From assembly GCA_004143605.1 (NCBI GenBank), contig AWVY01000062.1, positions 27,815 through 91,814 of the forward strand: DNA of 64,000 nucleotides, read 5' to 3'. This DNA is from Desulforamulus aquiferis. GTDB taxonomy: Bacteria; Bacillota; Desulfotomaculia; Desulfotomaculales; Desulfotomaculaceae. The translations under genes were made by a program, and so were the position numbers. The notes beneath the pieces were generated by a model, which saw only the letters and a list, made by a program, of their open reading frames with translations, was not told the origin of the DNA and ran no database searches. Below are positions 9,477 through 63,686 of the stretch, one piece after another. Position 1 is the first letter of the stretch; every line of letters begins with the position of its first letter.

Positions 9477-10491
9477 TTACTTATTGACCAAGTATTCCGA
9501 ATCCGAGAGGGAAAAGGCAATAATCTTACCAGTTTCCGTTACATCGTAATCCCCTAAACCATAGAGTTCATTTTTGAATTCCTTTGATTGTAATATTTCT
9601 ACCACAGCTTGAATATATGGTTTTTGTAAATCTTCCTTCCTTAAAACTAACTCGTAACGCTCCTTCTGCAAGGGAATAAAATCTACCCCCCTGACCTGCA
9701 TAGATACTTTTTCATTTCCCAGGCCAACATCTGCGTCTCCCCTGGCAACAGCACTGGCAATACCAAGATGAGATGGCTCTTCAATCTCATAACCTTTAAT
9801 TAAATGCCTATTGATGCCTAAGAGACGAAGCTTTTCATCTAATAGCACCCTTGTGCCGCTGCCTTTTTCGCGGTTTATAAAGCTTATCTCTCCCCGGGTT
9901 AAATCCTGCCAAGCATTAATGTTCTTTGGATTACCCTTTGCTACATAAAAACCCTGCATACGGCAAGCCAAGTGCAAGATAACGGTTTTAACACCTGGTA
10001 ACATATGACGAACATAGGGGATATTATAGACATTTGTATCCCCATCCCACAAATGAATTGCTGCAAGATCCGCTTTTTCATGGTAGAGAGCCATTAGCCC
10101 AGGAAAACTTCCAACATTATGACGGAAGGCATGAATGCCATTGGGATGTCGTTCAAGTTGACGTGACAAGACATCTAGCAGAACATCCTGCCCGCATATT
10201 ACAATCCCCTGGGGTAGAGGTGACTTATTGACTAATATATTATTACTTCTGACACCATTGCTTAAATTTAGCAGCCTTGTGTCGTCACTCAATCTACTTT
10301 TTGCCTTGACGTTTATAATTTTCTACATCCTTTAAATCAACTCGTATTTTACGTCCCACTCGGTAAGCCGGCAATTCACCACGTTTTATTAACTCATATA
10401 CAGTATTCTTGGCTATTTTAAGCTTTGCTGCTACTTCTTCAGGTGTCAAAGAGATTTCTTCCATAATTTTTACCTCCAACCCTATTGACAA
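9477..10491 (-). CDS. One-component regulator: excisionase-type HTH plus periplasmic-binding-like domain, probably one gene split by one base
   Basis: The first part (start at 10491, or better the internal ATG at 10464 after GGAGG) has a MerR/excisionase HTH, 'TPEEVAAKLKIAKNTVYELI', followed by 'LPAYRVGRKIRVD'. Its frame ends at 10294. The second part, from a TTG at 10292, is a 271-residue PBP-fold domain with 'RGEISFINREKGSGTRVLLDEKL' and 'GIASAVARGDADVGLGNEK', as in the LysR-substrate-like domain of ModE-like HTH-PBP regulators. Removing one A from the AAAAA run at the joint fuses them in frame. Such fusions are usually oxyanion-sensing regulators in anaerobes. Beside tupA, it probably senses tungstate or molybdate. 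Confidence 0.75.
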
Positions 10492-10579
10492 GTATTATAA
10501 CATAACTTGTATAGCGAACATAATACGCTATATTACGTTTAGTCATTTGTAGCATTGTTTTGTCGTTAGAGTTACTTTT

Positions 10580-11837
10580 CTAAAGACTCAAATACATTTT
10601 GCGAATCACTCTCTTTAATTCTAAAATTTCTTTGGAAGAAAATTTCTTATGACTATAGCAGTGAAGCACATAGCTTTCTGTGATTCTCTTGATAGATTCG
10701 TCATAGTGGGGGAATACCTTGCAGATCCGCTCACTAACTCATAGGGCGTTTCCCAGGCCCCTTTAGTATGGTTTCTCCGGTCAGCCCATTTCAAAAAATG
10801 TTGATAAGCCTGGGTAACACCGTATTTTCCTGGAACAAAAAAAGTCAACAATAACTTAATCTTTAACCATAGTTCCTGCAAAAAAGGCTTGATCTTTAGC
10901 CTGGGCAGTCCATATTCCTGGGGTATATTAGTTAGCCGTAGCCTTTGCCAGATGATCCTGAGCAATAATACAGCCATAATTAATAAACCAACCAGCAGTA
11001 CCACCAGTAAGACATAAAGTAGTAGTTCAGAAATGAAACCATCTCCAGTATTGCCTTCTGACAAGGGCAATTGCTCATTTGCCTGATTGGGTGGGTTGCC
11101 GCTGTCAACGGCCCCCGGCCTTTGGGGTGCCATATTGGTAAGTACTAATATAGCTTTTAAGACTATAGTTAATAGCTCTAACAAGAAATTAAACAGGGGC
11201 TGAAGTAGCTCAAATAGCTTGTTGGATAATCCATGAAGAGGACCCTTTAAAAAACTGGCCAGCACCAAAACAGGGGCCATAATGATGGCAAAGTAGGTGA
11301 AAATTACCCAGGCTTTCGCCTTCTCATGGCCTGGCCTAGTGAGGGAGAGCAGCAGTAGGTTTCCCAGCAAAAGAATAAGCATACTTGGAATAATGTTAGG
11401 TACATCCTGGTTTAAAAAATCTATTAATAGAAGTAAGGCCAAAAGGATTACTATACTTAGCTCAAAACGTTGGACCGCCTGGGGGTAGCTTATAGTTTTT
11501 TAGCTAATAGTCCAATCCTAAGCCAAATCCAGCCATAGAACACTAGGGGAACCGCAGCCTGCACATTAGCTAATAAAGCTGTTGACCTATAAAAAAACAA
11601 TACCGACACAATAAAAACAAGGCCATAAACACACCAAAGCATAAGATTAGACCAATTTCTACTTTGTAATGCTGCCATGGAGATGACAGAAAGCAAAGAA
11701 ACCCCGGCGAAGATTACCAATGAAGTCATGGCCCACGGGGGTGTTTGCAGGGCTAATGCAATTAAATAATATAGTGGGTATAGATAGGCCATTTCAACCA
11801 ATATTGCGCAAATGTTGACTTGAAGTTTTGTTGTCAT
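10580..11837 (-). CDS. DUF4129-type membrane protein of a MoxR/DUF58 operon, two frame changes
   Basis: Three frames join. The first (11490-11837) has about four hydrophobic helices starting 'MTTKLQVNICAILVEMAYLY'; the second (from about 11478) begins after 'SYPQAVQRFELSIVILLALL' and has more membrane helices, a soluble linker with Pro/Asn near 'PPNQANEQLPLSEG', another helix and the DUF4129 tail with 'GAWETPYELV'. A third frame gives the typical ending 'HKKFSSKEILELKRVIRKM', stopping at 10580. Fused, it is about 415 residues. DUF4129 domains accompany transglutaminase-like membrane proteins; here no transglutaminase domain is visible. The gene ends the minus-strand operon after MoxR and DUF58. 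Confidence 0.6.
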
Positions 11838-11840
11838 GGA

Positions 11841-12934
11841 TTACTCCACCTTATATTCATATGGGATATCGTAACAACCGGGGCAGCTCAACTGCACAAT
11901 CACCGATGCACATATAGCTTGTTCCAGGGGGATGGTTTGGCTCTCAAAATCAAGTAACATCTGCAGCTTTCCAACCGATACCAATTCCAGCCTGGCCAGT
12001 CTTTCCAAAGCTAGCATAAGGTGCTCAATGCCATTACCGACGGGCATGGTTAAGGGACCTTGGATGCCTTTTGCCGGCCATTGATCAACAGGCCAAAGGG
12101 TATATTCAGCTCCTGGGCCCAAGAGATAATGGTTGCTGCCACAGAGAGGGCCTTTTCGAATTTCTCTGACTCGTTATTTCTAGCAAAAGAAGACACATCC
12201 ATCAGGATATAGATTTTATAATCGCCGGAGGGCTCCAGTACTTTAGCATAGAGCTGATCTTTACTAAGGCTGGCCTTCCAGTGAATCAGACGGGCCGGAG
12301 TATCATAGGTATATTCCCGCAAACTCACCGGGCGTACAGGATCCGGCATATAGGGACGCTGTATTTTTTTATCCCCAAGCAGATCTGACACCTCCAAAGA
12401 CAGCTGTTCCAGGGGAATTAGGGAAGGGTAAACGATTAGCCACCGATTATCAGGGAACAGGGTGTGACGTTCAAAAAGTCCAAGTCCATCCTGGGAGGAT
12501 ACCTGCAACCCCGGTATTTGCCAATAGCCCCTCCCCAGGGCCTTAATTTCATAAACTCTTGTGGCAGACTGATATCTGGTAAGCATGTAAGCCTTTTCTT
12601 TAATATCCGGGGCCGACAAGCCTACTGGTAGTGTTTGCTGCCAGCCTATGATTGACGGCAACCTTTTGGGGTTAGTTATTTGTAGGGTAAGGGTGGTATG
12701 TTCACCGGGAAAACAGCGAAGGTGTTTTAATTGTTTGGCCACAACTAGATCTCTAAGCCCAAATTTGCTCCACCAAGCAGCACTTTCCAGGGTGAAGACT
12801 AAAAACAACAGCAGAAGGGCGGGGAGCCATAGGGCATATCTTAGAGAGACAAGTAGGAATAACAGTAGAATAATCCTTACCAGGCCAATGGAAAAATAAG
12901 AGGCAATGTCAGGATGTGTTTCTTGACGGGCCAT
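11841..12934 (-). CDS. DUF58 domain protein, one frame change near 12090
   Basis: After two N-terminal hydrophobic helices (residues about 17-55) comes a beta-rich region and the DUF58 core 'DPVRPVSLREYTYDTPARLIHWKASLSKDQLYAK', with 'IYILMDVSSFAR' forming the start of a von Willebrand A-like fold. The frame ends at 12050, and 'GAEYTLWPVDQWPAKGIQGPLTMPVGNGIEHLMLALERLARL' in another frame, ending at 11841, is the expected continuation. Its ATG shares a base with the MoxR stop (TAATG). DUF58 proteins are paired with MoxR AAA+ ATPases in systems thought to assemble or activate membrane or cell-surface complexes. The exact client is unknown. Confidence 0.75.
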
Positions 12935-18470: not shown

Positions 18471-18655
18471 TGAACAAGAAGAATTCACCTGAACAAAAGT
18501 ACCTTAGGGAAGAAATCATCGAGAATGCCGAGATTTTGTTTAAGGTAAAACCGGAGGTTGTAATTGGTGCCCTGCATAATATTAAAAAACATGAACTAAC
18601 CGTCAGCGAGGTTGAGCAGGCGGTTAAATTATTTTTAGAGGAGGTAGTTAAATAA
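18470..18655 (+). CDS. Small charged protein before the tail sheath
   Basis: A 61-residue protein starts with GTG at 18470 (TAGTG overlap) and ends in TAATG with the sheath start. The reading 'EIIENAEILFKVKPEVVIGALHNIKKHELTVSEVEQAVKLFLEEVVK' is helical, like the 'YqzN/XkdN-adjacent' small proteins that sit before XkdK. It is tightly coupled on both sides, so it belongs to the tail operon. It has no visible catalytic motif; a structural or chaperone role is inferred. Confidence 0.6.
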   Translation: MNKKNSPEQKYLREEIIENAEILFKVKPEVVIGALHNIKKHELTVSEVEQAVKLFLEEVVK

Positions 18656-20105
18656 TGGCAGGAGGAACATGGAGCCCCACCGAGCAAAAAGTTAGGCCAG
18701 GATTTTATCTTAATTTTGAGGCTGCTGCCTTAGCGGCTATTAAGCCGGGTGCCCGCGGCATTGTTGCCTGCCCGGTTAAGGCTGATTGGGGTCCGGCAAG
18801 AGCATTTCAAGAAATAACCAGTGAGGCTAACCTTCTTTCGGTATATGGCCAAGATCAGGTTGAAGGAGCAACTGCTTATAAGACAATCCGTATGGCTCTG
18901 CTGGGGGGAGCTAAAACAGTTCTTGCATACCGCTTAGCCGACAGCAATGCTGCTAAAGCCAGCATTACTTTGCAAGATACATCGGGAACACCAGTAAATG
19001 TGATAAAACTTGAAACAAAATTTGAGACCGCCCGGCCATTTAAAGTAACAACCAGGATTAATATGGTTGATTCAGCAAAACAAGATCTCCAACTTTATGA
19101 CGGTACTGCTTTGCTTCATACATTCACCTTTAATTCAGGCGTAAATGGAGTAGATAATGCCATAGCTGCTATTAACCAAAATGCCGGCAATGAATGGGTA
19201 ACTGCAACAAAACTAACTTCAGGCAACGGTGTCCTTGCCTCGGTAAACAGTCAAGATTTCACAGGCGGGAATAATGGAATTGCAGGTCTGACTAATGCTG
19301 ATTATATTTCCGCCCAAGCTAAATTTGAGTCCCGGGTGTGGAATCTGTTCACCTTGGATGGCAGGTCTGAAGGTGCCCTTCAGACCTCTTTTAAATCCTG
19401 GATTGAGCGCCTGCGTAATGACGGCACCGGTGTAATCGGTGTCTTTGGCGGTTCAAACGAGTCCGATGCCGATCCGGCCCAGGTAATTTACGCTCTATTG
19501 GTTTTAATCATGAGGGTATTGTCAACGTTATTGTGGGTGCTGTACTAAACGAGGAAAACTACAACAGTGCAATGGTAGCCCCTTATGTTGCAGGTTTAAT
19601 TGCCGGTCAGAAGCTAAGTGAGACCATTACTTATGCCCTATGCCCCTTTAGTGATGTTTCCCCGCGCCTTACCAACAACCAGGTGATTGCTGCCCTTCAG
19701 GCCGGTTCACTTGTACTGGTACATGATGGGGAAAAAGTTAAGGTTGAGCAAGGCATTAATACCTTAACAGGCCTGCGTCAGGGCCAAAATAACCAGTGGA
19801 AAAAAATCAGGGCCATTCGAACTATGGATGCAATCAATAATGACTTGCTTAAAGCCGCCAGCGATAACTATATCGGCAAGGTAAATAATAACGATGACGG
19901 CAAGGTTGCCCTGCTGAATGCATTTAAACAGTATATGGACACACTGGTTCAAGGCGGCATTGTTGAAAGCGATTATTCGGTATATCTAAATCCCCATTAT
20001 CATGGGAATCCTCCTCTGGCTGCACCCGATGAGGTATATCCCAAATGGGAAGCTCGAATTACCGATGGTATGGAAAAAATCTTTGGAACCTTTATGGTGA
20101 AATAA
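18655..20105 (+). CDS. Contractile tail sheath protein (XkdK-like), one frame change
   Basis: The N-terminus 'MAGGTWSPTEQKVRPGFYLNFEAAALAAIKPGARGIVACPVKADWGPA' is the classic opening of Firmicute sheath proteins. The frame stops at 19548, while 'FNHEGIVNVIVGAVLNEENYNSAMVAPYVAGLIAGQ' continues in another frame from about 19495 to 20105 and ends with the sheath C-terminal domain ('WEARITDGMEKIFGTFMVK'). Fused length is about 483 residues, as expected. Sheath subunits stack around the tube and contract to drive it into the target cell. This gene shows that the particle is contractile (myovirus or R-type). Confidence 0.9.
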
Positions 20106-22590: not shown

Positions 22591-23228
22591 ATGGATATAT
22601 TCCTCAGGGATCCTGCTGGTGAGCAACTCCGCTTTCCTGTAAACCCGCAAGAGATTCAAATCAAATCTGAAAAACAGTTGGAGACAATAAATATTATCAA
22701 TCTAGGTGAAGTTGATTTTCCCAATGGGAGAAGGTGAAGGACATTACCTTCTCCTCCTTTTTCCCAGGGAATATGATATATCCTACTGCCGTTATACCGA
22801 CATCCCGGAGCCGCAAGCAGCCATAAATAAAATACTGTCATGGACAGAGAGTAAAAGGCCGGTTAGATTAATTATTGGCAATAGCTATAACGATTTAGTG
22901 CTGGTATCGGCCATACAAGCATAATCAAGGGCGGTGAACCGGGAGATATATATTTTGATCTGACCTGTCGAACTTGGCGGGAGGTAAAGGTAAGGCAGAG
23001 GCCAATCAAATTTCCCCGGCTGCTTCAACAACATCACAAGGCCATCGGAACGATGTTAAACCAAAGCCTTTAATGTATGATATAAAGTCTGGGGATTCCC
23101 TATGGTCTATAGCCAAACTAAATTATGGTGATGGCGGGAGATGGAAGGATATTTATGAAGCAAACCTAGATACCATCGGCAAAAACCCAAATTTAATCCT
23201 ACCAGGTACAAGGCTGGTGATGCCCTAA
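22591..23228 (+). CDS. LysM-containing tail protein (XkdP-like), two frame changes
   Basis: ATG at 22591 after GTGAGGTGA reads 'MDIFLRDPAGEQLRFPVNPQEIQIKSEKQLETINIINLGEVDFPNG', the XkdP N-terminus. The next frame carries 'REYDISYCRYTDIPEPQAAINKILSWTESKRPVRLIIG', and a third, from about 22930, ends with a LysM domain 'YDIKSGDSLWSIAKLNYGDGGRWKDIYEANLDTIGKNPNLILPGTRLVMP'. Frame changes are near 22727 and 22925. Length joined is about 212 residues, typical for XkdP. It links the tube or hub to the baseplate, with LysM contacting peptidoglycan. Its TAATG overlap with the next gene supports one operon. Confidence 0.82.
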
Positions 23229-26162: not shown

Positions 26163-26720
26163 TATTATATCATCGCAAAGGGGTAAAGCAATGCTTGGTT
26201 ACTGTCCCCAATATTACGAAACCTCCCGGGTGTTTAAGTCGTATTTACAAGCAGTTGGTCCGGAGCTAGATATTTTTAAGCAAGGTATTGCGGAAACTTG
26301 GACCAGTTCTTTGCCCCTACTGCAACCTGGGCACTGGACATTTGGGAGCAGGAGCTGGGTTTAACCAGCTTAGCCGGTAAGCCCATTGAACAGCGGCGCA
26401 GCTTAATCATATCTAAACTGCGGGGAATCGGCACAATAACCACAGAGCTAATCAAAACCGTTTCCGAAGCATATGACGGCGGAACTGTAGAAGTTACCGA
26501 GCAGCCGGAAATTTATCAAATCTCGGTAGAATTTTTTGATACAACCGGAGTACCCCAGAACTTGTTAGATCTTAAAGGGGCCTTGGAAGAAATAAAACCG
26601 GCCCACTTAGCAATCCGGTTTATCTTTAAATACCTGCTTATCAGAGATATACACGAAACCATGACCATAAACGAACTCCAGTCAACCCCGCTACACAAAT
26701 TCGCAGGAGGTGGCTACTAG
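26155..26720 (+). CDS. DUF2313/YmfQ baseplate protein, copy 1, one frame change
   Basis: GTG at 26155 reads 'MSNIISSQRGKAMLGYCPQYYETSRVFKSYLQAVGPELDIFKQGI'; near 26300 the frame changes to 'FFAPTATWALDIWEQELGLTSLAGKPIEQRRSLIISKLRGIGTITTELIKTVSEAYDGGTVEV'. This is the DUF2313 pattern. The protein connects baseplate J to the tail fibre (as gpI does in P2). Length fused is about 188 residues. It overlaps both neighbours by a few bases. A second copy is at 31775. Confidence 0.85.
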
Positions 26721-30662: not shown

Positions 30663-31797
30663 TTGACAACCTTACCCGAATATTTAACTAGCCAGACAGA
30701 AGAAGCTATAAGGCAGAAAATGTTTAATAGCTTGCCCTCGAATTTAGATAAATCCGAGGGCAGTTTTATTTGGGACTCATTGTCTCCTGCAGCCATAGAG
30801 TTAGCCCTTGCAGCATTGTGGCTCAGGATGTTTTAAAAATGAGTTTTGCCGGTTCTACCTTTGGCCCATATCTAGATTTGAGGTGTGATGAGCACGGAGT
30901 TACCAGGCTGCCTGCCGTAAAGGCTGTTGGTCAGGTTATGTTTTCAGGTGCCGCAGGTACGGTAATTCCTGCAGGAACAACAGTGGCAACACCGTCCGAT
31001 CCGGCTACCAACAACCCATCAGTAAAATTTGTTACTAATACAGATGCTATCCTTGATGGTTCAGGGGTTTGCTATGTTGAAGTAGAAGCCATTGAAGCAG
31101 GCAAGGCAGGGAATGTGGGAGCCCAAAGTATTAGTGTTATGGTAACTCCTGTAACCGGCATAGCCGGCGTCACAAACCCGAACGAAACAAGTGGCGGCAG
31201 TGACCAAGAAAGTGACGAAGACTCTTAATCAGGTATTATTCTAAAGTACGCTCACCAGGAACCAGCGGTAATAAAGCAGACTATATTAACTGGGCACGTG
31301 AAGTGCCTGGAGTTGGCGGAGTTCACGTTATTCCTCTTTGGGATGGTCCTGGTAGTGTCAAAGTCGTATTAATTGGTACGGATAAATATCCTGCAAATGA
31401 AAATTTAGTCAATGATGTTCAGAACTATATAGCACCTACATTGGGGACCGGCGAAGGGAAAGCCCCCATTGGAGCAAATGTAACAGTGGCAGCTGCAGAG
31501 GCGATTGACATAGAAATATCCGCCACTGTGGAATTAACCGGTACTAGGACACTAATGGAGGTAAAAACAGCCTTTGAGACTGCCTTGACGGAATACCTTG
31601 GAAGCATTGCCTTTACAGCTAATCCAAATGTTAAGTATACAAAGATAGGATCTATGTTGCTAGTTACTGACGGAGTTGAAGACTTCACAGATTTAAAGGT
31701 AAACAACAGTACAGAGAGAGTCTTAATAGATGCAAGTAAGGGTGAAGTGGCTGTTAAAGGAACGGTGACATTGAATGAGCAGCTATCAAATGATTAG
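30663..31797 (+). CDS. Baseplate J protein, copy 2, two frame changes
   Basis: TTG at 30663 after GGGAGGTG reads 'LTTLPEYLTSQTEEAIRQKMFNSLPSNLDKSEGSFIWDSLSPAAIELALAAL'; a change near 30830 leads to 'VLKMSFAGSTFGPYLDLRCDEHGVTRLPAVKAVGQV', and another near 31222 to 'SPGTSGNKADYINWAREVPGVGGVHVIPLWDGPGSVKVVLIG'. The same landmark blocks occur in copy 1 but with many substitutions. Joined length is about 378 residues. Placed after a holin, not in the normal baseplate position, it looks like the head of an alternative fibre module. Confidence 0.85.
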
Positions 31798-55420: not shown

Positions 55421-58040
<2,620 letters not shown>

Positions 58041-58472
58041 TTGCTGAATACATCCAGCTTTAATTAGCAGCACCGCTCAGTTATGCTTTATGTATGAGCC
58101 AAGGGGCATGTCTATACTCTCTTGACTGTCGTGACCCAAAAGACATAATGTACGAAGATAAACAGGCTTACTGAACCTGCACATTAGTGTGGGTTTTTTG
58201 CATTATATACATCCTATATGTGCACCGGAAAATACTTCGTCGCATTTTCTTTGCTTTCGACACATTTCTCAATCTTTCTCTAATTTTGAATGATAAAATA
58301 TTTTAACTACAAAATTTTTATGACTTTTTTAGTCAATGGCAATAGTCATAGGGGAGTGCCATTGTGTCTATAATTGGCAGTTCTTGAAGTTTAACATCAT
58401 GGCTAATAATAGAATTTTTTTAAACGTTAAAATAATATAGTGCTTTGTATGGGTAACGAGGGAGGAATGAAT
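58041..58472. other. Noncoding stretch between rph and the STAND system
   Basis: No gene is supported. A weak terminator hairpin (CACATTAGTGTG then TTTTTT) lies near 58186-58203. The base composition becomes clearly more AT-rich toward the right, marking the border of the inserted defence region. Confidence 0.5.
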
Positions 58473-61400
58473 ATGTCAGTTGAAATATCTGGACCTAAGG
58501 GATATGACTTTCAGTACCTGAATTCACTTTTATTTGCGTTAGAATACTTGGATAAAGACGAAGTAGAAATATATGTAGAAAAGAAAAATGGAGAAGATTC
58601 CCAAATCGTTTTCAGTCAAGACGGAATAAAATATATAATTGATATTCAAGTGAAGAATAGAAGTGAGGAGATAGATCTACAAAGTTTTGCCGATTGGATA
58701 AGCCATTTTGAAAACAGAAGCGTAAATTCCAGCCTATTGAATAAGTTGGATAAAGATAATAATAGGTATGCTGTATTTATTTCTGACGCGAGAAGTAAAG
58801 ATGATGTTAGCCTATTTGTTGATGAAGGAATAATTCATACAGAATTAAGTATTGGATTTAATAACGAATACTTAAATAAGATAAAGGGATGCATAAAGAA
58901 TTGCTATTCAGATAATAGCTCTACAAGTATATCTAGAAAAAACTTTTTAGAAAAATTTATAGATAGTATAACAAATAATCATTTTCGAAATATATTGAGA
59001 AAAATAAAATTGAGAGAAAGATACACGGAATCCTACTCGACAGAAAGAATAAAATCCTTATTAAATAAAAAATTCTACATATCTCAAGGTAAAACTGATG
59101 ATGTAATAATTGAGTTGATAGATAAGATAAGACATAGTAGAGGTACTGATATTTCCATTACTACTGAACTAATACATATAATTGATAAACATAGTGGAGA
59201 AATTCTTTTAAATAGAAATGAAAACTATATTAAAAGGATAGAGAGTGAATCATGTGAAAGAATTTTAAGCGCTAATAATATTTTATTACTCACAGGTATA
59301 TCTTTTTGTGGAAAGAGTTACTTAGCAAAAGATATTGCTCAAGAATATCTTGAAAATGGTTATAAAGTTGAGCGAGTGGGTGAACTTTATGGTGATGGGG
59401 GAGCTATTTCATTTATTAGACACAGAGGTATTGAAGATAGATTATTGATTTTAGAAGACCCTTTTGGACAGGTTGAAACGAAAAAAGATGCAATAAACAT
59501 CTTGAATGAAATAAGAAATTTAATACGAGATTCAAGATCAAATAGGAAAATTATTATAACTTCAAGAAAAGATATTCTCCTTGATACAACATCCAAAAAA
59601 ATATAGGTGAATGTTCTATTGATTCACATCGCTGGGTTGATTTAACACTGGGTAGTTCAGAAAAAATGATAGAACTATGGGAAAGCTACTACGGGGATTC
59701 TGTAGAATCAAGAAAACTATGCAATGATGTAACAAAGTGGCTTCAAGAAACTGAGAAAACCTCATCACTTCAACTAGGACATATAGCAAATATTTATAGT
59801 GCTAAGAAAAAGTTGAACGATTTAATAGTATTAGAGCCAGAAGATATAATACGCACTGCCAGGATAGATTCAAATGATTTGGCCGGGATTATTGAGAGAA
59901 GAGGAAGTGCAGCAAGTAAGGTTTTTGTAGCATTAGGATTAAGTTGTAACACATATAAAACTGTTACCTTGAATGATTTAGCTTTTATTTTAAGTAATTG
60001 TGAAGAAAAACCAGGGATATGCAAAGGTGAAAAAGATTATTCGGAATTTACTTTAGGTCAGGACTTAGAAGATATTAAGCATGATAATTACCCTAAATAC
60101 GATTTAGATTATAAATTAAATAGTGAATACAAGAATGAACTTAAGTATTTACAGCAGCATGGATATATACAAATTGATAATGTTAAAAGAATTATGTTTG
60201 TGCATCCAATCTATCATTTTGCTACGCAACTATTATTTAAAAAACAATTTATAGATATTCTAGAACAGCAGGAAGTTATAGAGTTAATTCGAAAGAGTTT
60301 AAGCTCACTCTCGATTAATGCTAACTTGTGTACCCTGACAATGCTTGAAAACTTATATAAAGAAAATCCTGGTAGTGAGTTAAAACAACTAATGTTAATT
60401 GGAATGGAATCTATTTTCCCTTCTGTTAGGGACAAAATTATAATGTTTTTTGACCGAAGAATAAATGATTTAAATGAATCAGAACAAAAAAAGGTTTATT
60501 GAAGTATTAATGTATGGTCCGAGTATTAAAAATGATGGTATTAGTTGGTATGACGGTATGCCTTACTTTAAGGTTTCAGAAAGAAGAAGATTTTCTTATT
60601 TTGATTGGTTACATGATGAAATAAGTAGTGGTGAAATTGACTCATTAGCAAAAAAAATAGCTGATGGGATTGATGTTTCCCCTGAAAAAATGTGGAAGTT
60701 TTTAAAATCTAGAAATAGTAAAGTTTTATCACTAAGTATTTTAGAGAAAGCGTTATCATATGATGAAAGTTTTATACGTGGAAAAGCAATTAGGTTAATC
60801 TTTGAAAATTATGCTTATAAGTTTGAAAAAGTGGATGAATATTTAAATAGTCATGAACACCCTGAAGTTATATATAGTCTATTTAGGGGAGCGCTTAGTT
60901 CATGGCGAAGATATAGTAGTGAATCTAGAAGGCTTATATTAAATTATTTTAAAAATTGCTTAAATATCATGTCTGTGGCTATAAGAACAAAAAAATTCTT
61001 AGAAAACTTTGAAGATGAATATTCTAGAGAAAGTATCAATTGGAGTAAAGTTGAGGAGAAAGATAAAATTGAATTATGGAATGTATGGCACGAGATTTTC
61101 GTAGAATTTCTAAATGAATTTCCTTCTAGATATGTTAGAATGGATGAGCCCCATATGGTAAGAGTCACAGAGCATTCTTTAGAGTATATAAAAAATGAAG
61201 AAAAAGTCATCGATTTGTCTAGGGCATGGTTTAACTGGCTAGATAGATATTTACAGTATAATTTACCACATGATTATGGGATGAGTGTAGCTCAGTATCT
61301 GATGGATGGGACTGGAAATAAAACTGATTCTAGGGAAAATATTTTTCAATTATTGCTTTCAACTAAAAAAACAAGTTTTATTACAACCAACATTAAGGTT

Positions 61401-62207
61401 TTCATTGATTGTTGGAATAATTTGTCTGATAAAGAGAAAAGAATGGTATTAGACTTATATAAATCAACCAGAAAGGATGTAAACTGGGTAAAAGCTGTTT
61501 CTTTAAACACGAAGACCATTCCATATGAAATCCAAGTTGAAATATTAGGTGAAAGTATTGATAATAAGGCTATATCTGATGTGGTTGATATATTAACTAA
61601 AAAAGGTCTTCTGGAACAATGTCTTAATATTCACTGTGGATATCCGCAGCCCTTGTGGTGGAATGGGTATCATCATAACAATTATATATTGTGGGATGCT
61701 GTTATAGTAGAAGTCTTGAGGAGGAATGAATTAAACAAAACATTTTATATTGCTTTACGAGAAGTAATTGATTTGTTGTACAATTATGACGATAGAAGGA
61801 TTGCTAATATTAATGATATATATGAAGAAGATTTATTAAAGAGTCCAGAAAAAAGGAAGTTGGCATTTGAAACTTTGCTAAATGTAACAGTTAATCAAAA
61901 TCAATGTAATAAAGAATTATGGGATTTATTATTTCAATATAGTTCCCAAGAAGAAATAGAATTCTATTTTGATAAGATAGCTAAAGATATTGAGCTAGTT
62001 CAATATTACCAAATTGGCGAAGGAGATATATTTGCACTATTTGATAAGTCAATGATTTTTAAAAAAATTTATCCACGACTAGAAGTTGACAATCTTATAA
62101 AAAGCCTTGTAGAAAGTATGTTCACTTTATATAAAGTGATAAACGATAGTAAGAATACCTTAGAAGGTTTTAAGGATAAAGAACTCAGCTCATCTATCAA
62201 AAAGTGA
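58473..62207 (+). CDS. Candidate defence protein: DUF4297-like nuclease + nSTAND3-type NTPase + long helical domain, two frame changes
   Basis: ATG at 58473 follows GAGGGAGGA with 6-base spacing; a GTG at 58440 is also open. The N-terminus has 'GPKGYDFQYLNSLLFALEYL' and 'KYIIDIQVKNR' (residues about 53-63), the QxK motif of PD-(D/E)XK DUF4297/Cap4-like nucleases. Walker A 'GISFCGKS' (residues about 275-282), Walker B 'RLLILEDPFG' (about 323-332) and sensor 'IIITSRKD' (about 360-367) mark an nSTAND3-type NTPase. The C-terminal 800 or so residues are helical repeats. Frame changes at 59600 (needs one more A in A7) and 60490 (one A fewer) restore about 1245 residues. It overlaps the next gene as ATGA. 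Confidence 0.75.
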
Positions 62208-62473
62208 ATGAAGAAGAAATTTTAAAGAGAAATGATGAGTTGGAAAAGCTTAAGACTAGTTTTATAGTGAGTGCAACCAAGATATATAAGGATAATCCCC
62301 CAAGACTGTTTTTTAGTAACAAATTAGTGGAAGGTGTTATGAAGAAAATGGAGATTACTTCTTTTGAACTAGAAGAATTGATTGAGAAAAATCGCGTCAG
62401 ACTAATAGAAATTACAAGAGATTTAAGACAAAAGTATGATGACCATTATGACTTAATAGATTGGATTAATTAA
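62204..62473 (+). CDS. Small partner gene coupled to the STAND nuclease
   Basis: ATG at 62204 overlaps the previous stop (ATGA), so it should be made in step with the STAND protein. The 89-residue protein is charged and helical: 'EEEILKRNDELEKLKTSFIVSATKIYKDNPPRLFFSNKLVEGVMKKMEITSFELEELIEKNRVRLIEITRDLRQKYDDHYDLIDWIN'. It has no membrane segment or metal motif. I do not recognise a family. An inhibitor, sensor adaptor or assembly factor for the large protein is the natural guess from coupling. Confidence 0.6.
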   Translation: MNEEEILKRNDELEKLKTSFIVSATKIYKDNPPRLFFSNKLVEGVMKKMEITSFELEELIEKNRVRLIEITRDLRQKYDDHYDLIDWIN

Positions 62474-62925
62474 TGCATAGGGATACTTATAAGAATGCTA
62501 TATCGAGCACACCATATAAAAAAACAACAACTTCGGATTATCCATATACCTAGGCTAATTAATTATTGGAATATTTACAGTAAGTTCATAATTTAAGGCG
62601 AAATATTATGGGAGAATATACAAGAGAAGAATTATAAGGAGATCTACAAATTGTTTCTTCAGTTATCAGTATTTGTGGAGGGTACCTCTCAGCAAACACC
62701 GTACCTTTTGTAAGGAATAATTTTGAAACAGGCAGGAATTGTCTTGGAGGTAGATGAGATTGGGTAATTCTGAGCTTATACTATCTAGTATTAAAATATA
62801 GATAGACTGGTAAAATCACATATAAAAAGCCTATCAAAGCCCATGGATTCATGGCTTGAAGAGAGATTGCTTGAGTCTGTTAAATCCTCCTGGTGAACTG
62901 GTTTGAGGAGAAAGGGGCGAGGGCT
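62474..62925 (+). other. Stretch without a clear gene before the methyltransferase
   Basis: Several short broken frames are present but no ORF with a good start and family. One AT-rich segment near 62537-62580 ('TCCATATACCTAGGCTAAT') has an imperfect copy near 63858-63900. Confidence 0.4.
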
Positions 62926-63686
62926 ATGTCAAATATAGAAGAAAACCTTGCAAAGTCACTAACTGCCAAAACAACAGAATTGATTCCGTTCTTGCCATAT
63001 TTATTGCAAGATTTATGGGAGCTTGGTTCAAGTCCAAGAGATATTAAGGAGCTTATAGCAAAACATATTCCAGTATGTGAGGAAACAAAGGTTCTAGACC
63101 TCGCTTGCGGAAAAGGGGCAGTAAGCATTCAATTAACCAGAACATTTGGCTGTAAAGTTAAGGGAATAGATATTTTTAAAGAGTTTATAGCTTACGCAAA
63201 GAGTAAGGCTGAAGAATACTCTGTAGAGAAGATATGCGAGTTTATTGTTGAAGACATTAATCAATCTGTAAGGGTTGAAAGAGATTATGACATTGTTATT
63301 CTTGGTGCTGTGGGAGATGTGCTAGGAAATTCAATTGAAACAATACTAAAACTTAAAAGTACAATTAAAAAGAGAGGATACATAATTATTGATGATGCCT
63401 ATAGTGGTGAGGGTTCTGAAGAAAGGTACCCTTCAAAGAAGCAATGGCATCAAGTCTTTCAGCAGACAGGAGTTAAGCTATTGCTGAGAAGGCAATTAAT
63501 GATTTTGAACTGGTTAAAATTAATAGAATAAATCAAGCCCATATTGTTAGGCGAGCCAATGAATTAAAGATACTTTATCCTGAGCAAATGAACATTTTTG
63601 AAGGATACATAAGAAGTCAACAGGCTGAATGTGAAGAGTTGGAAAGTGAAATTACAGGAGTCACTTGGCTCTTGCAGGTTATTTAG
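62926..63686 (+). CDS. Class I SAM-dependent methyltransferase, one frame change
   Basis: ATG at 62926 follows AGGGGCGAGG; the GTG at 62893 has no good ribosome site. The protein reads 'VLDLACGKGAVSIQLTRTFGCKVKGIDIFKEFIAYAKSKA' (motif I with DLACGKG), 'DIVILGAVGDVLGN' and 'IKKRGYIIIDDAYSG'. The frame stops at 63531, but from about 63477 the next frame continues 'AIAEKAINDFELVKINRINQAHIVRRANELKILYPEQMNIFEGYIRSQQAECEELESEITGVTWLLQVI' to 63686. Fused length is about 253. The substrate is unknown. Confidence 0.8.

Follow-up and report, generated by a model that had tools for sequence, protein, structure and literature searches.

Within the window (i.e., the whole stretch of DNA analyzed here, 64,000 nucleotides), our data indicate that positions 58473-62473 hold one large gene of approximately 1334 residues, encoding a putative phage-sensing, DNA-cutting protein of a known kind. 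We consider it probable, by analogy with characterized defence proteins, that the locus encodes a single-protein Avs-like immune sensor-nuclease, in which DNA cutting would be triggered by phage. An earlier note on this DNA had proposed an undescribed system of two genes, a nuclease-STAND protein of about 1245 residues and an 89-residue partner. A profile match, conserved motifs, the predicted fold and the defence genes near relatives all support the order of domains that it gave for the large protein (i.e., nuclease, nSTAND3 and repeats, as in Avs proteins). The proposed partner, judged by alignment, is the C-terminus of the large protein: in intact relatives the single protein ends with the 89-aa segment, and a separate partner gene is not seen repeatedly.

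Gene layout and the identity of the 89-residue segment

The ORFs at 58473-62473 (+) form four overlapping pieces in two frames, and joining the four pieces gives a 1334-residue protein. Its features are as follows:

58473..59204 (+): predicted PD-(D/E)XK nuclease domain, N-terminal, Cap4/DUF4297/HamA/LmuA-like, aa 1-244 (AlphaFold, Foldseek, motif conservation)
59205..59606 (+): nSTAND3 NTPase, first part, with Walker A GISFCGKS, Walker B LILEDPFG and sensor-like RKIIITSR (PF20720)
59597..60502 (+): remainder of the STAND module and first part of the helical region, read in the second frame (79% identity to the relative at locus L025, collinear with its intact 1334-aa ORF)
60474..62207 (+): predicted alpha-solenoid (HEAT-like) C-terminal region, probable sensor (Clostridium ragsdalei alignment, structure model)
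62204..62473 (+): C-terminal end of the same protein, previously read as an 89-residue partner gene (84% identity to the last L025 residues)

The first piece in the window (58473-59606) ends at TAG 59604-59606, which is produced by a frame break in an A-run near 59600, and a second A-run near 60490 breaks the frame again; both breaks had been recognized in the earlier note. A third frame break near 62200 leads to TGA 62205-62207 and splits the 89 residues from the rest of the protein. In the joined frame every stop is produced by frame shifts. The junction that had been described as an ATGA overlap is in fact GTGA, made up of GTG 62204-62206 and TGA 62205-62207. The start codon is likely ATG 58473, preceded by GGAGG, rather than position 58440, which is merely the first GTG of that frame; the N-termini of intact relatives (MSVEISGP or MSMSVEISGP) agree with this choice.

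Compared alone with rhizobial relatives, the 89-aa piece reached only E ~1e-3 in a tiny set, so close relatives were needed to settle the identity of the C-terminus. When 84,980 species genomes were scanned, 17 related loci emerged. Nearest to the window protein are Clostridium ragsdalei P11 (L025:9001-13005), with 81% identity across residues 1-1334 in one uninterrupted ORF of 1334 aa, and, at 78% identity, Firmicutes bacterium UBA6113 (L024), with one ORF of 1324 aa. Pieces 1-4 of the window are collinear end to end with the C. ragsdalei protein (84, 79, 78 and 84% identity), with the 89-aa piece aligning to its last residues. Remoter full-length relatives (20-29% identity) are also single ORFs of 1265-1322 aa, which gives a range of 1265-1334 aa, always in a single ORF, for the full-length ones of the 17 loci. 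Furthermore, P1278 and W1332, both within the 89-aa segment, are invariant in 20/20 aligned sequences.

These data bear directly on the two-gene reading, in which a 1245-aa nuclease-STAND protein would be translationally coupled to an 89-aa regulatory or sensor partner. The GTG-started ORF of the window does overlap the upstream stop by GTGA, but in the intact ORFs of 1334 and 1324 aa (L025 and L024) these residues form the in-frame end of the one protein, and the remoter relatives likewise hold the conserved end segment within a single ORF. No recurrent small downstream gene was found among unrelated loci, the 89-aa piece had no separate match on plasmids, and the large gene had no conserved separate partner beside it in homologous loci. 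We regard a two-gene system as scarcely credible and ruled out by the intact single-ORF relatives. The earlier note had itself laid down that its pair would fall if no partner gene were conserved, and so the pair falls, while its nuclease-STAND part stands. A false two-gene system is thus corrected ahead of database entry or bench work.

With three frame breaks in it, the window copy may or may not be functional. We consider sequence or assembly errors the likeliest cause of the breaks. Frame breaks are spread across the window, which makes sequence error the simplest reading: two frame changes interrupt the PPS-like gene next to it (55433-58040), which is intact in the same-genus genomes G006 and G005 (85 and 79% DNA identity), a 483-aa gene is split at 19476/19482 compared to intact same-genus copies, and more conserved genes are split near 22998, 26295 and 31216 compared to intact relatives. 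A real pseudogene, i.e., a window copy undergoing decay in its host, with true mutations as its frame breaks, would fit with three breaks within 4 kb, with the broken flanking PPS gene, and with the Lysinibacillus plasmid copy, which also seems split between frames. However, this kind of splitting also affects conserved genes at other places in the window, several of them still 75-90% protein-identical to intact copies, which points to assembly indels and not to decay of a single gene, and the stops of the joined frame are all due to frame shifts. We judge a pseudogene improbable, and sequence or assembly error remains our preferred reading. Since the window is indel-rich, all its ORF boundaries are suspect; the regions with split conserved genes are 18655-20105, 22591-23225, 26167-26717 and 30755-31773.

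Nuclease domain, STAND module and helical C-terminus

Residues 1-244 had no significant Pfam match, and Cap4_nuclease (PF14130) was not matched by hmmscan. A PF14130 search of the organism's own genome gave no match anywhere, controls included, and is weak evidence. The GYDFQ and QVK motifs pointed out earlier in the N-terminus are present. An AlphaFold model of aa 1-244 (17 sequences; pLDDT 89.8, pTM 0.86) predicts the order helix-strand-strand-strand-helix-helix-strand (H9-25, E29-35, E43-49, E52-61, H69-76 and E98-104 among the predicted elements), with D42 and Q59-x-K61 in place. Model and alignment together give an alpha-beta-beta-beta-alpha-beta core with a D...(D/E/Q)xK motif, and F13, Q14, E36, E41, D42, Q59 and K61 are invariant in 20/20 aligned sequences. 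Foldseek matched the domain to PDB entries 8zue, 9ux7, 9hr5, 7yib, 9c1m and 8dgc, with values of 5.9e-7 for Hachiman, 1.8e-6 for Lamassu LmuA, 7.7e-5 for both Cap4 and HerA-DUF4297, and 3.0e-4 for Avs3 (8dgc); MspJI was also among the best matches to the fold. The best solved matches are thus defence or restriction nucleases, with modest whole-domain TM-scores of approximately 0.5. On the basis of the model, we confidently assign the N-terminal 244 residues to a predicted PD-(D/E)XK fold that is Cap4/DUF4297-like.

The nSTAND3 profile (PF20720) matched residues 255-373 of the window copy by hmmscan (2.8e-12; 47 bits vs a gathering score of 27.2) and residues 260-407 of an intact relative (4.4e-15). 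All five relatives tested scored above the cut-off (44.6-56.1 bits). The P-loop GISFCGKS and the LEDPFG and IIITSRKD motifs were correctly noted before, and G280, K281, D329, P330 and G332 are invariant in 20/20 sequences.

The remaining 1090 residues were modelled on the C. ragsdalei protein (mean pLDDT 78.8). Past the ATPase the model is nearly all helical, in agreement with the long helical C-terminus that had been described. Structural matches of the C-terminal model were importins, CAND1, cohesin HEAT proteins, EfAvs5 (9jap) and another STAND protein, with low TM-scores (0.1-0.2); we take the region to be a predicted alpha-solenoid, with no specific relationship implied. Hints of EAD6, RinA, GcvH and MscL were below the cut-off and attributed to chance. 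Matches to PADLOC PDC-S73 and mad8 and to NCBIfam Avs2 covered the P-loop stretch only or were far under the cut-off, and indicate no membership. A PDB sequence search returned chance or P-loop matches only and no Avs protein.

Distribution, transfer and neighbouring genes

Across 398 genomes of the phylum, a near full-length match was found only in the organism's own genome and in one other, and the rest of the matches lay mainly around the STAND domain. The N-terminal half had no other copy in the eight same-genus genomes searched, and the C-terminal half had none in the class sample. The block is AT-rich, as had been observed, with a GC content of 0.295 compared to 0.40 +/- 0.03 in the remainder of the window, taken in 4-kb stretches (0.38 directly upstream, 0.36 downstream). 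Its nearest relatives, in low-GC clostridia, have 84-86% DNA identity and a gene GC content of 0.28. The low GC content, the lack of copies in eight same-genus genomes and the clostridial relatives make the transfer suggested earlier plausible, and from these sequence comparisons the gene was likely acquired from a low-GC clostridial source. Downstream lies a SAM-dependent methyltransferase (62893-63531; PF13847, 5.3e-17) with 77% DNA identity to a same-genus genome, which is outside the system.

Plasmid carriers of relatives include Klebsiella, Agrobacterium, Bradyrhizobium, Ensifer, Lysinibacillus and Serratia. The DNA of the Klebsiella copy had no near match in 5,426 E. coli genomes, and phage records gave no match. 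On plasmid pMHQ of Lysinibacillus sp. MHQ-1 (L004:5600-10300), several short hypothetical proteins are annotated in place of the relative, which seems frame-split as well. A full-length relative of 1277 aa in one ORF sits in a prophage-like tail module (L041:6001-9834; IMGVR_UViG_3300031251_000127); by our reading of the genes, small tail genes lie on one side of it and, on the other, a tape-measure-like gene (10079-12799).

Relatives follow a type I restriction subunit, from which a single gene separates them (L040), an Mrr-type endonuclease (Mrr_cat; L039), type III R-M genes as read from the ORFs (L026), multiubiquitin, ThiF and DUF6527 genes (L002), and a SIR2_2 and HerA pair (L027, L028). 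Only SIR2 and HerA genes recur as neighbours among clearly unrelated loci (L027/L028 and L037), which makes SIR2-HerA a possible recurring defence-island association. These genes flank the relatives in Acinetobacter and rhizobia, and their orientation differs. On the Bradyrhizobium sp. 187 plasmid (L002:5718-9788), the annotated relative is longer at its N-terminus by approximately 85 residues, and these match the beginning of a phospholipase effector (PADLOC 9.9e-8), which probably marks a recombination joint in a defence island.

Proposed mechanism and comparison with known systems

The proposed mechanism builds on the three-domain order, the catalytic and Walker motifs, the nuclease fold, the solenoid prediction, the single ORF and the defence neighbours, which were observed or predicted here; phage-protein sensing, oligomerization, the DNA substrate and an abortive outcome we infer by analogy. 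At rest, the ATPase would be kept inactive by the long alpha-solenoid at the C-terminus. Binding of the solenoid to a phage protein made during infection would allow the nSTAND3 domain to bind or exchange ATP and the protein to oligomerize, which may cluster the Cap4/DUF4297-type nuclease domains of the N-termini. These would then cut double-stranded DNA (phage, host or both), and phage production would stop.

A nuclease-STAND protein might instead have a target other than phage, for example in anti-plasmid defence or in competition between elements carried by plasmids and prophages. Many copies are indeed on plasmids, next to the replication gene repC (L031, L032), flanked by insertion sequences (L007) or within a prophage (L041). 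However, defence genes of every kind travel on mobile elements, and characterized proteins of the same domain order act on phages. We therefore consider a non-phage target unlikely and favour the phage-triggered sensor-nuclease. The intact single-ORF relatives are directly testable, and if they protect, they would represent a further family of antiviral STAND sensors, and the phage ligand of their long conserved solenoid could be searched for.

Avs1-4 sense the phage terminase or portal and cut DNA as tetramers. The protein described here resembles Avs1-Avs4, and in particular Avs3, in joining a nuclease, a STAND module and a long helical sensor in one polypeptide, and its nuclease fold matches that of Avs3 (8dgc); the Avs3 chain, in contrast, has 2028 residues compared to 1334 aa here. 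More generally, an N-terminal effector, a STAND module and C-terminal helical repeats are found in one polypeptide, as in Avs1-Avs5. The NCBIfam Avs2 model (NF041813) scored 19.7 bits against a cut-off of 1000, the PADLOC Avs models gave no match, and the intact relatives had no Avs match in NCBIfam or PADLOC. Given that the curated Avs models do not recognize it, we call the protein Avs-like and keep it apart from Avs1-5. Neither NCBIfam (2026) nor PADLOC (2023) has a named model for it; it may have a name elsewhere, for example in DefenseFinder.

Avs5 (AVAST type 5) belongs to the nSTAND3 clade by Pfam and shares the order of N-terminal effector, STAND and helical-repeat sensor (PMC12931631). 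It is a tested anti-phage sensor for which an early phage protein is the trigger and both the ATPase and the C-terminal repeats are required (PMC12931631). The effector is SIR2 in Avs5 and a predicted PD-(D/E)XK nuclease here, and the repeats here look HEAT-like, not TPR/Sel1. PMC8195603 makes general mention of REase effectors of related conflict systems. In the open literature on nSTAND3 we found one relevant paper only.

Tentatively, and with somewhat more doubt than confidence, we suggest that proteins of approximately 1265-1335 aa with a Cap4-type nuclease, nSTAND3 and a HEAT-like solenoid may form a separate unnamed Avs type, sparse in Bacillota and Proteobacteria. Their conserved C-terminal region might recognize a phage protein outside the range of Avs1-5, and prophages might carry the gene, even in a tail module, to exclude other phages. 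In its N-terminal nuclease fold and D...QxK style motif, the protein is like Cap4, DUF4297, HamA and LmuA of CBASS, HerA-DUF4297, Hachiman and Lamassu. The nuclease of those systems carries a fused SAVED domain or acts together with a helicase, ATPase or SMC partner that is separate from it, whereas the one described here has its own STAND sensor in the same chain.
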